Shown here piece after piece: positions 16,919 through 48,964 of a stretch of 64,000 bases of DNA (position 1 is its first letter; each line of letters opens with the position of its first letter). Location of the stretch: NCBI GenBank assembly GCA_021782815.1, contig JAJXUO010000001.1:62001-126000 (forward strand), given 5' to 3'. The DNA is from Pseudomonadota bacterium (GTDB lineage Bacteria; Pseudomonadota; Alphaproteobacteria; Rhodospirillales; Magnetospirillaceae). A program made the position numbers and the translations under genes. The notes under the pieces are model-generated. The model was given only the letters and a program-made list of their open reading frames with translations, did no database searches and was not told the DNA's origin.

Positions 16919-17476
16919 TTACGGCGACGGAGCGGAAAACGGGGTCAGGGGATACTCGGCTTCGACGCGATACAGGGGATCGCCCTTGCCGAGATGGCTG
17001 GAAAACAGGGTAAAGGCGGCGGCGGTAAAGTCCAGCGTCAGCAGGGCGTGCGCCGCCAGAAAGGCGGCCAGCCGCTCGGGCGCCACCGCCCGCGACAGCC
17101 GGGCCAGGGTAACGTGGGGGGAATAGCGGCGCGGTCCGGCGGCCAGACCGGCCCGGCGCGCCGCCCGTTCCACCCGCTCCTGCAGACGCAGCAGAGCGGC
17201 ATCGGCGGCAACCCCGGCCCACAGGGTATGCACATGGCGGCCGTCGGCGAAGGTGCCGCAGCCCTTGAGGGTGATGGGCAGGGGCGGGGCGGCGATGGCG
17301 CTGAGGGCATCGTGCAGATCGGCGGCCTGGTCTTCCGGCATCTCTCCGGCGAAACGCAGGGTCAGATGCAGACTGTCCGGCGGGCTCCAGCGGGCGCCGG
17401 GCAGACCGCCGCAAGCCCCCGCCAGGGCGGCGCGCACCGCTGGCGGCAAGGCGATGCCCACGAACAGACGGATCAT
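16919..17476 (-). CDS. thpR: RNA 2',3'-cyclic phosphodiesterase (2'-5' RNA ligase family)
   Basis: A 185-residue 2H-phosphoesterase. The two HxTx motifs are HLTL (His37) and HVTL (His121), spaced as in ThpR/LigT. The family opens cyclic phosphates and can ligate 2'-5' RNA ends in vitro; its physiological substrate is unclear. The start MIRLFVGIALP is typical. ATG 17476 overlaps the stop of the FIST gene by 4 bp (ATGA), so it is translationally coupled, and gshB follows 9 bp downstream. The open frame continues far upstream in an antisense-like manner, but this start gives the normal family length. Confidence 0.9.
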   Translation of the reverse strand: MIRLFVGIALPPAVRAALAGACGGLPGARWSPPDSLHLTLRFAGEMPEDQAADLHDALSAIAAPPLPITLKGCGTFADGRHVHTLWAGVAADAALLRLQERVERAARRAGLAAGPRRYSPHVTLARLSRAVAPERLAAFLAAHALLTLDFTAAAFTLFSSHLGKGDPLYRVEAEYPLTPFSAPSP

Positions 17477-18603
17477 AGGAACAGCGCCAGCACGCCGGTA
17501 TAACCGTAGAGGCGGTCGTGCCAGATCTCGCCCGAGGCGGAAAAACCGATCAATGGAAAATCCCCCAGATGCTCGCGGATCATTTCGGCCTCGCGGCCGT
17601 CGTCGCCGAACATATGGGCGCCCCGGCCCATGCAGGCAATATAAAGCCCGCCCTTGGGCGTGCGTCCCTCCAGCCGCCGCGACAGATCCTCCAGCATGCG
17701 CGCCAGATCGGCGCGGGCGGCGTTGGCGTCGCGCCGCACGAACATCAGGCGGTCCCCCGGCCGCAGATAGTCGCCCACCGCCAGCCAGGCCCGCTGGGGA
17801 TCGATGCCCAGCAGGTTGCGCACGGCATAATCGGGACCATCGTTCGCCCCCGGCAGCGCCACATGGATATAGCCCGCCGCCCGCGCCAGACGCCGGGCGA
17901 TGATCTCGCCCGCCTCGTCCTTCAGCACCTCCAGGGCCGGGCGGCCATCCAGGGTCATCACCACATTGTCGAGAGCCTCCTCCACCACGTGGCAGGGACC
18001 GATGGGCTGGCACCCCTGACTGATGCCCACCAGCAGCGGCACCGCATCCCCCAGCACCAGGCCCGACAGCGACGCCGGACTGATCTGACCCGCCACATGG
18101 CCGCCGCCGGGAAAAGCCAGCCCACCCACCAGAAAGGCGCCGCTTTGCCCGGCCAGGGCCTCCAGCTGCCGCGGCAGATCGACGGCCTGGGCGTCGCCAT
18201 GCACCAGGGCGTGCGCCTCGGTCTGGCCGCGCAGCCAAATATCGTGCTGGCGGGCGAATTGCGGCGGATCGGAACCATCGAAGGGTTTCAGGCCCTGAGG
18301 ATCGAGATGGCCGGCCATCAGCACCAGGGCGGCGCCGTCGCTCACGGCGCCGTCGGGCCCGATCACCCCATGACCCACGGCGCCGAACCAATGCCCCACC
18401 GGCGTGGCGCCGCGCAGCAGGGTGACGATGGAGGAAAAATCATCGGCCAGGGCCGGCGTGACATAGACGAAACCCACATTGGCATCGGCCGTTAAAGGAC
18501 CCAGGGATTCCAGGGCGGCCTTGACCACCAACCCCCAATGAGCGCCTTCGGCCTGACCCACCGCCAGATAATCGCCGCCGGAGCCGGCGGAGGGACTATG
18601 CAT
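17473..18603 (-). CDS. FIST N and C domain sensory protein
   Basis: A 376-residue protein with FIST-N (about 35-205) followed by FIST-C (about 215-360). Signs are NVGFVYVTPALADDFSSIVTLLR, HWFGAVGHGVIG, the FLVGGLAFPGG segment, and in the C-part GLYIACMGRGAHMFGDDGREAEMIREHLGDFPLIGFSASGEI, including the cysteine commonly conserved in FIST-C. FIST proteins are proposed ligand sensors, often for small molecules such as amino acids, and often sit with chemotaxis or GGDEF genes; here the partners are thpR and gshB. No output domain is present. It starts the operon; the divergent control region contains a dispersed repeat. Confidence 0.85.
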   Translation of the reverse strand: MHSPSAGSGGDYLAVGQAEGAHWGLVVKAALESLGPLTADANVGFVYVTPALADDFSSIVTLLRGATPVGHWFGAVGHGVIGPDGAVSDGAALVLMAGHLDPQGLKPFDGSDPPQFARQHDIWLRGQTEAHALVHGDAQAVDLPRQLEALAGQSGAFLVGGLAFPGGGHVAGQISPASLSGLVLGDAVPLLVGISQGCQPIGPCHVVEEALDNVVMTLDGRPALEVLKDEAGEIIARRLARAAGYIHVALPGANDGPDYAVRNLLGIDPQRAWLAVGDYLRPGDRLMFVRRDANAARADLARMLEDLSRRLEGRTPKGGLYIACMGRGAHMFGDDGREAEMIREHLGDFPLIGFSASGEIWHDRLYGYTGVLALFL

Positions 18604-18717
18604 GATCGTGTTCTGTCCTTCCGAGGCAAATCATGGGCCGGACCGGATATGAGGATCAGCTTGTCGGCTGCGCCCCCGTTCGTCAAGCCGACTGCCCCGA
18701 TTGCCTGGCAAACCCCC

Positions 18718-18911
18718 AGGGTGATCGCAAGTGCGCTCACCCTGGCTTCTTTATTGTCCCTCAAGCGCCGGGCGCTGGCGTTCCGCCAGCTTGGCTGTCC
18801 TCGCTTATGCCTGCGCTTTCGCTGTCCGCCTTCGGCGTTCGTCTGCGACTCCCGGCAACGCTCCGGCGCGCGAGAAAGCGCTAGTCAGCCGCATAAAGCG
18901 GCTTCCATATG
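18718..18911 (+). repeat. Dispersed hairpin element, copy A
   Basis: A 194-bp non-coding sequence related to 48008-48170. Both begin AGGGTGATCGCA, share CTCAAGCGCCGGGCG, TCCTCGCTT, CCGGCAACGCT and CTAGTCAGCCGC, and end AAGCGGCTTCCATATG. Hairpins in this copy: AGGGTG/CACCCT around CGCA-AG-TGCG; GCTGGCG/CGCCAGC; CGCC/GGCG; GCGC/GCGC; GCCGC/GCGGC. Several stems have different sequence in copy B yet remain paired, which is the pattern expected of a conserved RNA or DNA secondary structure. It lies between divergent genes, 30 bp before a promoter. Confidence 0.75.
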
Positions 18912-18940
18912 CGATCACTCCGGCAAACCCCGCCCTGGCG

Positions 18941-18970
18941 TTGACCTCGGCCGATTCCGTGCCATATTAA
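18941..18970 (+). promoter_or_regulatory. Sigma-70-type promoter for Bax inhibitor-1 gene
   Basis: TTGACC at 18941-18946 as -35 and CATATT (18963-18968) or TATTAA (18965-18970) as -10, with 16-18 bp spacing. The start codon is about 35 bp further on, after AGAGAGG. Confidence 0.5.
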
Positions 18971-19005
18971 GGCCAAGAGTTCATTTTGCTTACAGAGAGG
19001 ATACC

Positions 19006-19755
19006 ATGGCCTTCGAGAGCGGACGGCGGACCTGGGCGCAAAGCCAGACGGACGCCAGGCAGATTGACGCCGGTCTGCGCCAGTACATGCTGCGGGTCTA
19101 TAATTATATGGCCTCGGGTCTGGCCCTCACCGGCATGACCGCCGCCCTGGTGGCCGGCGTACCCTCGCTGCAGGCGCTGTTCTTCCAGCATACCGTGAAC
19201 GGCGGCGTCGGTCTGTCGGGCCTGGGCTGGATCGCCCTCATCGCCCCGGTGGTGATGGTGATGGGCCTGTCCTTCGGCATCAACCGCATGCAGGCCAGCA
19301 CCGCCCAGGCGCTGTTCTGGGCCTATGCCGCCCTGATGGGGGTATCGCTGGCACCCATTTTCCTGGTTTATACCGGCACCTCCATCGCCCGGGTGTTCTT
19401 CATCACCGCCGCCTCCTTCGCCTCCTTGAGCCTGTGGGGTTATACCACCCGCCGCAATCTGGACGCCTTCGGCAGCTTCCTGGTGATGGGGCTGATCGGC
19501 ATGCTGATCGCCTCGGTGGTCAACATCTTCCTGGGCAGCCCGGGCTTGAGCTTCGTGGTCTCGGTGGTGGGCGTGCTGGTATTCGCCGGCCTCACCGCCT
19601 GGGATACCCAGAAGATCCGCCAGATGTACTGGGAAGGCGCCGGCTACGAGGCCTCGACCAAGACCGCGGTCATGGGCGCCCTGGCCCTTTATCTGGATTT
19701 CATCAACCTCTTCATCCTGCTGATGCGCTTCATGGGCGACCGCCGCAGCAACTGA
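19006..19755 (+). CDS. Bax inhibitor-1/YccA family membrane protein
   Basis: A 249-residue integral membrane protein with seven hydrophobic segments between about residues 30 and 245. Family marks are LRVYNYMASGLALTGMTAALVAG near the first helix, FLVMGLIGMLIASVVNIFL, AGLTAWDTQKIRQMY and ALALYLDFINLFILLMRF at the end, including the conserved Asp residues of the closure sensor. Relatives are pH-sensitive calcium leak channels or interact with FtsH; the role here is inferred. AGAGAGG precedes ATG 19006. The open frame extends upstream through the repeat element but that part is not protein-like. A bidirectional terminator follows. Confidence 0.91.
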   Translation: MAFESGRRTWAQSQTDARQIDAGLRQYMLRVYNYMASGLALTGMTAALVAGVPSLQALFFQHTVNGGVGLSGLGWIALIAPVVMVMGLSFGINRMQASTAQALFWAYAALMGVSLAPIFLVYTGTSIARVFFITAASFASLSLWGYTTRRNLDAFGSFLVMGLIGMLIASVVNIFLGSPGLSFVVSVVGVLVFAGLTAWDTQKIRQMYWEGAGYEASTKTAVMGALALYLDFINLFILLMRFMGDRRSN

Positions 19756-47361: not shown

Positions 47362-47910
47362 TTAGTTGGGGTTCTGCGCCGCCACCGCGTCGGCCCGCAT
47401 TTCGCGGGCGCGGGTCAGGATGGTGTTTTCCAGATCGGTCGAGGTTTTGGCGTCGACGGGGCTGTCTTCCCACTGGCCGTTGCTGTTCTGCACCTGACGG
47501 AAGGTGGAGACATGCAGGCTGTCGGCGCGCAGGGTACGGTCCTGGATCACCACGGTCAGCTTGAAGCGTTCGTTGGCGGCCTCGGGCGAGCTATACCAGT
47601 CGGTGATGATGACGCCGCCGAAGGGGTCGGCCGAGGCCAGAGGCATGAAGGACAGGGTGTCCAGGGTGGCGCGCCACAGATAGGCGTTGACGCCGATGCC
47701 GTTGCCCTGCTGGTTGGTGTCGCTCTTCTTGCCGCCGAACAGATTGAGGCCGCCTTCACCGAAGATGGTCGGCTTCTTCTGGTCGCCCCAGGTGGGGGTG
47801 GTATCGCCGGGATCACGGGAGGGCGCGAGGGTTTGGCCTTCGCCACAGGCGGCGAGGGTGAAAAGGAGGGTCAGCGCCAGGGCCTTCCGCATCTTGCTGT
47901 GGATCACCAT
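47362..47910 (-). CDS. DUF3576 lipoprotein
   Basis: A 182-residue protein with an N-terminal signal [25 protein letters not shown]; the lipobox Cys is at about 22. The mature part contains [50 protein letters not shown], which is the DUF3576 signature. It is common in alphaproteobacteria directly before leuS; function unknown but probably at the outer membrane with LptE. ATG 47910 (GGAG upstream) is preferred; ATG 47892 is an alternative. Confidence 0.87.
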
Positions 47911-48280
47911 TATTGCTCCAAGACCGTCGTTTCCGGACATGGGACCGGAATGATGCAAACCTTCTCGTACCATAGGAGCGAGGGGAACCCAAGAGTACAG
48001 TTGTTTTAGGGTGATCGCATTTGCGTCCACCCTGGCTTTTTTGTCCACTCAAGCGCCGGGCGTCGGGCTTTGCCCGACGGGGCTATCCTCGCTTTTGCCT
48101 CCGCGCCTGCTCCGGCAACGCTGCGGCGGCCTCAACGGCCTAGTCAGCCGCCAAAAGCGGCTTCCATATGAGACCACCATGCCGGTTGTCCCATCGATAC
48201 ATCCCTTTGCCTCGAACCGGCGGTTTCACCTCTGTGCTATGAGGGGAAACCGGTGTTTCGACCAGCATGATGGAGCCCCC
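47911..48280. other. Divergent intergenic region DUF3576 / FAH gene
   Basis: A 370-bp gap. It contains dispersed repeat copy B (48008-48170). I see no credible gene, and no clear promoter for the FAH gene in 48171-48280. Confidence 0.6.
48008..48170 (+). repeat. Dispersed hairpin element, copy B
   Basis: A 163-bp relative of 18718-18911, in the same orientation. Hairpins: AGGGTG/CACCCT around CGCA-TT-TGCG; CGTCGGGC/GCCCGACG (copy A has GCTGGCG/CGCCAGC); GGCC/GGCC (copy A GCGC/GCGC); GCCGC/GCGGC. It is about 30 bp shorter than copy A, missing the part around the small CGCC/GGCG hairpin. As in copy A, it lies between divergent genes, with its end about 110 bp before the rightward start codon. 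Confidence 0.75.
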
Positions 48281-48964
48281 ATGACCCATTTCGTTCTCCC
48301 TCCCGCCGCCCCCACGGTTCTGGCCGTTTCCGGGGGGGGGCTTTTCCCGGTGCGGCGCATTTTCTGCGTCGGTCAGAATTATGCCGATCATACCCGCGAA
48401 ATGGGCGGTGATCCCAGCCGTGAACCGCCGTTTTTCTTCGCCAAGCCCACCGATGCCGCGACCTCGGCCCCCACCGTGCCCTATCCGCCGGCCACCCAGC
48501 GTCTGGATTACGAGGGTGAACTGGTGGTGGCCATCGGCAAAGGCGGCGCCGGCATCGCCGTGGCCGAGGCCGAATCCCACATCTACGGCTATGCCGTGGG
48601 CTGCGACCTGACCCGCCGCGACCTGCAGGCCGAGGCCCGCAAGATCGGCCGCCCCTGGGATATGGCCAAGGGCTTCGACGCCTCGGCCGCCATCGGCGTG
48701 CTCTATCCCGCCGACGAGGTGGGGCATCCCGGCAGAGGGGCCATCACCCTGTCGGTCAATGGCGTGGAAAAGCAGCGCAGCGATCTGTCCTGCATGATCT
48801 GGTCGGTGCCGGAAATCGTCGCCACCCTGTCCGCCTATGTCACCCTGGCGCCGGGCGATCTGATTTTCAGCGGCACGCCCGCCGGTATCGGTCCGCTGTT
48901 CCGCGATGATCGGGTGGATATCCGCATCGACGGCGTCGGCGCCCATGTCTTCACCGTGGTGTGA
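48281..48964 (+). CDS. Fumarylacetoacetate hydrolase family protein
   Basis: A 227-residue FAH-fold enzyme. FCVGQNYADHTREMG, FFFAKPTDAA, DYEGELVVAIGKGG (metal-binding Glu pair) and GYAVGCDLTRRDLQ are intact, as is GDLIFSGTPAGIGPL. The short single-domain type suggests fumarylpyruvate or acylpyruvate hydrolase, but oxaloacetate tautomerase or decarboxylase activity is also possible. ATG 48281 with GGAG is chosen; upstream frame is repeat. xthA follows after 9 bp. Confidence 0.88.
   Translation: MTHFVLPPAAPTVLAVSGGGLFPVRRIFCVGQNYADHTREMGGDPSREPPFFFAKPTDAATSAPTVPYPPATQRLDYEGELVVAIGKGGAGIAVAEAESHIYGYAVGCDLTRRDLQAEARKIGRPWDMAKGFDASAAIGVLYPADEVGHPGRGAITLSVNGVEKQRSDLSCMIWSVPEIVATLSAYVTLAPGDLIFSGTPAGIGPLFRDDRVDIRIDGVGAHVFTVV

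Follow-up and report, generated by a model that had tools for sequence, protein, structure and literature searches.

REP and BIME elements, which are associated with the RAYT transposase, are abundant intergenic palindromes that occur in clusters and have a conserved tetranucleotide beside the hairpin. MITEs, as portrayed in the sections of PMC10969869 drawn on here, are short, non-coding, intergenic and palindromic, have terminal inverted repeats and target-site duplications, and encode no transposase of their own. ERIC elements possess terminal inverted repeats with a terminal TA (PMC10969869, PMC2229807, both in part). The CIR elements of Caulobacter, Brucella and other Alphaproteobacteria are about 110 bp in length and intergenic, and consist of hairpin arms with a linker; their mechanism of mobility is given as unknown in the part of PMC2229807 used here. 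The BOX elements of the pneumococcus are modular and rich in hairpins, form tandem arrays of an internal module and are likely to affect genes with which they are cotranscribed (PMC3049150, in excerpt).

The 64,000-nucleotide stretch of DNA analyzed here (the window) contains two copies, A and B, of an element that shares features with each of these. We consider it probable that both are decayed copies of a MITE-like mobile DNA element that is non-coding and non-autonomous and has as its body a string of hairpins with conserved linkers. Extended to the other genomes in which the core was found, the best reading is a putative family of palindromic mobile elements that are non-autonomous and spread over the class. 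Like a MITE, the form represented by A and B has terminal inverted repeats (CAGGGTGATCGCA at both ends) and target-site duplications and is non-coding and intergenic. In contrast to the MITEs of the excerpted description, no partner insertion sequence was recognized in the host genome, the core is class-wide, simple forms lack terminal repeats, and the stems vary while the linkers are fixed. The likeness to ERIC lies in small size, palindromes, intergenic position and high copy number; the element differs in being a chain of separate hairpins, a distinction made by description only, from the same partial accounts. The likeness to BOX is one of architecture, not of the boxA-boxB-boxC sequences, and the organism is unrelated; in the element described here, unlike BOX as there characterized, stems covary across genera. 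A first-pass annotation had not recognized the element as a named family, and we agree: there was no Rfam match, and searches with core strings and names retrieved no description from the open-access literature searched, where six core strings of 12-13 bases led to no paper on bacterial repeats, as judged by listing. Most surprising are the stems, which change freely and yet remain paired throughout the class, and the repeated occurrence of the element at stop-start overlaps in operons, with no transposase identifiable.

Copies A (18717-18921) and B (48007-48181) align over 203 columns at about 69% identity (blastn of the window, E about 2e-18), and the same search detected no third copy of comparable score in the window. 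The relatedness of 18718-18911 and 48008-48170 proposed by the first-pass annotation is thus borne out; its edges were slightly short, as the inverted-repeat ends lie at 18717 and about 18921. Copy A, read on the plus strand, is preceded by the left target-site duplication GGCAAACCCC (18707-18716), an exact 10-bp repeat of the right one (18922-18931). It opens with the left terminal inverted repeat, behind which the same sequence recurs in inverted orientation (18717-18744, hairpin CAGGGTGATCGCAAGTGCGCTCACCCTG), and closes with a decayed right terminal inverted repeat on the minus strand (18909-18921). Between the ends lie hairpin 1 (18767-18795; GCC-GGGC-GCTGGCG-TTC-CGCCAGC-TT-GGC), the inner stem of which covaries (arms 18774-18780/18784-18790), hairpin 2 (18868-18881; GCGC-GAGAAA-GCGC, arms 18868-18871/18878-18881) and hairpin 3 (18887-18903; AGCCGC-ATAAA-GCGGCT). 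Copy B, also on the plus strand, has the left inverted repeat TAGGGTGATCGCA, a decayed right end and no recognizable target duplication. Its hairpin 1 (48061-48079; CGTCGGGC-TTT-GCCCGACG) contains the arms GTCGGGC/GCCCGAC at 48062-48068/48072-48078, and is followed by hairpin 2 (48128-48140; GGCC-TCAAC-GGCC, arms 48128-48131/48137-48140) and hairpin 3 (48146-48162; AGCCGC-CAAAA-GCGGCT). The hairpins named in the annotation are therefore present and have changed in both arms while remaining paired, GCTGGCG/CGCCAGC against GTCGGGC/GCCCGAC and GCGC/GCGC against GGCC/GGCC. Each copy sits between divergent genes with start codons on both sides pointing at the element: for A, genes for a FIST-domain protein (17473-18603, minus strand) and a Bax1-I family protein (19006-19755, plus strand), and for B, genes for a DUF3576 protein (47362-47910, minus strand) and an FAA hydrolase family protein (48281-48964, plus strand), by gene prediction and Pfam.

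From the two copies the earlier reader had concluded that the element was mobile or recurrent. Mobility and recurrence both stand; a copy number of two does not. The host genome contains at least 136 covariance-model matches at E<=0.1, a lower bound with 150 candidates scored; 87 of them fall below 1e-12, and the weakest has an E of 0.044. The model was built on 52 units. Units were read in 47 stretches fetched around the places found by blastn of the host genome (61 with B and 82 with A at E<=10, many being pieces of one array). The end sequence CAGGGTGATCGCA occurs at 62 sites in the genome with at most one mismatch, compared with none for the reversed-pattern control. The search of the host genome and its relatives that the annotation had proposed thus returned many further copies, in the host and in other Alphaproteobacteria.

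Two forms of the element can be distinguished. Form 1, which includes A and B, is mostly 175-206 bp long and ends in CAGGGTGATCGCA; on the left, the end sequence is repeated in inverted orientation, so that this end forms a hairpin of its own. Form 2 corresponds to the inner unit, of about 120-150 bp and without the form-1 ends, and is often present as two to four units in tandem with short spacers, and no terminal inverted repeats were seen in tandem or simple units. A unit begins with hairpin 1, in the order CCTCARGCGCCGGGCG, stem, (N)TCC, stem, CTTGGCT, in which the variable stem and an internal loop (GGGC/TT) lie within an outer GCC/GGC pairing. There follow a middle part that differs between forms, hairpin 2 (GSSC, then TCAAY or GAGAAA, then GSSC), CTAGTC and hairpin 3. 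Outside the family, the middle part is by our reading often another hairpin, for example CGCGGC-ATAA-GCCGCG, succeeded by one such as GGGC-GGTC-GCCC. The body can therefore be described as a chain of separate hairpins whose loops and linkers are rather fixed and whose stems are free. None of 137 elements lies inside a predicted gene by our own gene prediction, and many copies lie within operons or adjoin start or stop codons and are probably cotranscribed. Open frames cross copy A; the possibility of a decayed coding gene was set aside, since the units are intergenic and are conserved by hairpin rather than by frame. In three loci of the host genome (L089, L119 and L125) a different hairpin, of type CAGGGCAATCGGGCGAAGCCGATTGCCCTGG, occupies or adjoins the position of the usual left end, as if end modules had been exchanged.

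The core was detected by blastn in 16 of 61 genomes (the host and its relatives) and by the covariance model in at least 29 of 385 genomes sampled over the class, the host included, again a lower bound with about nine candidates scored per genome. In titled genomes there were at least 117 matching stretches; of the 80 loci listed, 77 carry alphaproteobacterial names and three are named only 'Proteobacteria bacterium'. The genera represented among these loci include Magnetospirillum, Paramagnetospirillum, Azospirillum, Nitrospirillum, Niveispirillum, Roseomonas and relatives, Telmatospirillum, Caenispirillum, Erythrobacter, Croceicoccus and others, all of which we take to belong to the Alphaproteobacteria. 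A range confined to the Alphaproteobacteria is what was seen among the matches listed, and is not proven. Copy A had no match in the plasmid or phage collections, and one related element had weak matches to two Niveispirillum plasmids. On one of these (NZ_CP025614.1:84168-84216, H2) a partial match of the related element overlies an annotated acyl-CoA dehydrogenase gene and may be an intragenic or gene-end copy.

Mobility is indicated first by the flanks of form 1. In strict register, 8 of 21 end pairs have exact 10-bp direct repeats, compared with 0 of 420 crossed left-right pairings (also 0 at 8 and 9 bp); with offsets of up to 2 allowed, direct repeats of 10-12 bp flank 12 of the 21, 10 of them exact and two with a single mismatch, a count to which the crossed control, made in strict register, does not apply. 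Two of the 21 pairs (L091 plus strand and L128 minus strand) look like false pairings and were kept in the count. The GGCAAACCCC repeats on both sides of copy A are offset by one base. In a genome of another genus (G028, locus L066), similar ends (CAGGGYRATYGC) are flanked on both sides by an apparent direct repeat, CAGGACAAG, so the form with terminal repeats may extend beyond one genus.

Filled and empty orthologous sites provide a second indication, and the elements compared there are forms without terminal repeats from a related genus. In that genus, the junction of ribH and nusB (by Pfam, DMRL_synthase and NusB) was compared in 15 aligned sequences from 14 genomes, an alignment that leaves out matches from G443, G444 and G448: four have the element, two a remnant and nine neither. 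One of the four, from G447, is shorter and possibly independent. Five insertions in the genome G449 were compared with six relatives, and for all five an empty site exists in at least one relative. These presence/absence patterns may include losses, and the loss of an ancestral copy could explain part of them. By reading, the empty junctions are mostly ATGA, the overlap of a stop and a start codon, and once GTGA, and the filled junctions carry TCAT (ATGA reversed) on both sides. A pattern search of the 11 loci of the type-I sub-form, defined in this genus by TCCTCCGC after CTTGGCT, finds TCAT upstream in ten and on both sides in seven; three of the 11 are orthologues of one locus, and reading of the sequences adds L343, L347 and L314. 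At locus L351 the empty sites have TCAC, and TCAT is present on both flanks of the filled site. It is likely that the simple form generates a 4-bp target duplication, TCAT, although this is not proven, because start and stop codons force part of the motif.

Covariation of the stems was assessed in three alignments. The 52-unit alignment (51 distinct rows) has 88.3% of cells paired, compared with 75.8% when shuffled, and a covariation score of 0.280 compared with 0.095, a value reached by none of 500 shuffles; sliding the partner reduced the score to 0.017-0.050. Two of five measures in this alignment were not above the shuffles, namely both-side changes (12, a value that 74 of the 500 shuffles attained) and further pair types (19 against 24.8 shuffled). 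For 125 model-aligned matches (121 distinct) the covariation score was 0.408 against 0.103 shuffled and at most 0.064 slid, and for 36 matches from other families of the class it was 0.367 against 0.089; in both of these alignments, which were fitted to the structure and hence are biased toward it, all five measures exceeded all 500 shuffles. The shuffles in the pair counts leave shared ancestry in place. Helix P2 (TTGCC/GGCAA) is weak, with 66.7 to 73.1% of cells paired. The covarying hairpins of the first-pass annotation are thus upheld, with paired change above controls on the 52 units, the 125 matches and the 36 matches from other families.

The same annotation took paired change as evidence for selection on a folded form. 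The paired change is sound; to regard it as proof of selection is too strong, because template switching during replication also restores the arms of palindromes, and is described, in the part of PMC8794818 drawn on here, as creating and maintaining stems without passing through G-U steps. The rival explanation that follows is that the paired change is purely mutational, with template switching or the exchange of whole hairpins keeping the arms complementary and neither a DNA nor an RNA structure under selection. As a complete account we regard it as rather unlikely. In its favor, G.T intermediates are very few in the main hairpins, and within the arrays L103 and L109 neighboring units share the loop and not the stem. 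Exchange of whole hairpins would, however, carry the loop along, and compensatory double changes at a fixed locus in two orthologous pairs from one genus (G-C/T-A in hairpin 1 of L309 and L310; G-C/A-T in the middle hairpin of L356 and L361) indicate that such exchange is not the sole source of paired change. Moreover, linkers and loops are conserved class-wide while stems vary freely, and a constraint around the hairpins is more easily explained if the hairpins matter.

It is improbable, in our judgment, that the element is instead a structured RNA, whereby the copies would be transcribed and the hairpins would act in RNA as a cis-regulatory leader, an mRNA stability element, a ribosome-binding leader or a small RNA. 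The strong covariation and the many copies in operons and near start and stop codons, where cotranscription is probable, would suit such a role. The pairs themselves speak against it. In hairpins 1-3 of the 125 matches, 1713 cells comprise 1656 Watson-Crick pairs, 11 G.T, 4 A.C and 42 others, with no marked preference for one strand (11 G.T against 4 A.C), whereas 11 tRNAs in fetched loci have 230 Watson-Crick pairs and 15 G.T in 245 cells; these tRNAs were taken from loci of the host, the class and the window, the family loci of alignment A3 contributing none, and the Fisher tests treat cells as independent. Across the class, 83 distinct stems of hairpin 1, counted once each, comprise 496 Watson-Crick pairs, 3 G.T, 8 A.C and 16 others. 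The middle hairpin (69 of 86 distinct segments) comprises 433 Watson-Crick pairs, 2 G.T and 1 other, as returned by a finder that penalizes all mismatches equally. A structured RNA is expected to have more G-U on its strand, and one-strand tolerance of G-U was not found in the main hairpins. The exceptions are helix P2 in A3 (16 G.T and 13 A.C among 524 cells) and, in the class alignment A2, the third helix (21 G.T and 7 A.C among 147 cells), where the alignment is forced onto a hairpin that may not be homologous in these genomes.

Overall orientation and distribution lean against an RNA. Between tandem genes the element lies against or with transcription in 14 and 12 cases in the host genome and in 25 and 26 across the class, and copies are present or absent among close relatives. 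Rfam returned no match in the window at the gathering score or in 18650-18990 at E<=1, and its sole match on eight class loci was the tmRNA beside one array; no tRNA or tmRNA was found in the window. The type-I sub-form is different, being antisense to its tandem gene pair in 10 of 11 loci, which favors the RNA reading and would not be predicted of a purely neutral DNA element. In several class loci, GAGGG at the end of the element's minus strand lies about 9-17 nt from a predicted start codon, also a point for RNA, and the one-sidedness of type I may exist because only that orientation provides a ribosome-binding sequence. The annotation had left the choice between RNA and single-stranded DNA open. 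The scarcity of G.T and the overall even orientation favor DNA palindromes over an RNA gene, the target duplications and presence/absence patterns lean the same way, and one sub-form keeps a fixed orientation; the balance of these points suggests that the palindromes are maintained as DNA. Strong covariation need not therefore mean RNA, and scarcity of G.T offers a simple test for other candidate RNA families.

If the element is DNA, the nature of its mobilizer has to be considered. A REP-type element moved by an HUH transposase (Y1, RAYT or IS200/IS605) that reads single-stranded hairpins would account for the hairpins near the ends, the simple form without terminal inverted repeats, insertion beside the fixed tetranucleotide TCAT, and the combination of free stem sequence with fixed loops and linkers. 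With REP and BIME the element shares intergenic palindromes, clusters and a tetranucleotide at the hairpin. Y1_Tnp genes are present in 20 of 41 genomes (the host and relatives) and in 4 of 17 genomes tested from another genus. There is, however, no RAYT linkage, and no Y1 or RAYT gene flanked by the repeat, in the genomes examined. No Y1_Tnp match was obtained in the carriers G001 and G006, which have 25 and 14 blastn matches to the element, or in G019, G446 and G449. The single Y1 transposase gene of the host genome lies between copies of a different repeat and has no more of the present element than a degenerate fragment of hairpin 1 downstream, and the fetched class flanks contained no Y1 signature by regular expression, as distinct from a profile. 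Nor are terminal repeats with 10-bp duplications HUH-like, and we judge this explanation distinctly improbable. In the host genome, six near-matches to the terminal repeat do not belong to an element, five being inside predicted genes and one between genes; their locations revealed no recognizable autonomous insertion sequence with form-1 ends, and neither they nor the Y1 matches identified a mobilizer. That the element is a CIR element (the Caulobacter CcrM-associated intergenic repeat) is very improbable: size, class, intergenic position and hairpin arms with a linker all agree with the partial account in PMC2229807, but the element forms tandem arrays and shows no conservation of GANTC, which occurs in 2 of 52 family units and in 11 of 88 class elements, the latter much like the 13.4% of 2000 random stretches, a separation made by description and motif.

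We return, then, to a MITE-like mobile DNA element and present a hypothetical model for it. The form with terminal repeats would be moved in trans by a transposase. The conserved linkers, the loops ((N)TCC in hairpin 1) and the paired stems may be what a mobilizing nuclease reads in single-stranded or cruciform DNA, and two factors, that constraint and the copying of one arm onto the other by template switching during replication, would jointly keep the arms complementary. Landing sites would survive mostly at gene boundaries. The minus-strand end, CTTGAGGG, could act as a Shine-Dalgarno sequence, which would explain the persistence of one sub-form at operon stop-start overlaps and its near-constant orientation. 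Against the model stand the failure to find a mobilizer, the simple unit with its lack of terminal repeats and its partly codon-forced TCAT, the missing duplication of copy B, the TCAC at L351, the weak plasmid match over an acyl-CoA dehydrogenase gene and the G.T pairs in P2 and the third helix of A2, in addition to the type-I orientation.

A more far-reaching version, which we consider unlikely, is that class-wide mobile hairpin chains move without any known type of host transposase and are read by structure, the stems being free as long as they pair and the loops and linkers fixed. One sub-form would then enter operons exactly at ATGA overlaps and duplicate TCAT, such that the upstream stop and the downstream start survive, and would bring its own GAGGG ribosome-binding sequence, rewiring translational coupling without breaking either gene. 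The family would add to the Alphaproteobacteria a large group of small mobile elements, unnamed as far as we have searched, with about 100 or more matches in one genome and differences at operon junctions between sister species. It also represents a natural system for separating selection on hairpins from template-switch correction.

Several minor observations accompany these results. The lone Y1 transposase gene of the host genome (L134 1400-2210, contig C73) is flanked by ATTACGGTGACAGTTTACT-type repeats, which belong to a different repeat family. At least five contigs of the host assembly (C6, C34, C49, C90 and C91) end within about 30 nt of an element. In two tandem arrays of a related genus (L335 and L396), TCAT and its filler are repeated along with the unit. 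A five-unit array with a period of about 100 bp (L148 1138-2024, genome G329) starts about 10 nt past the end of a tmRNA gene.
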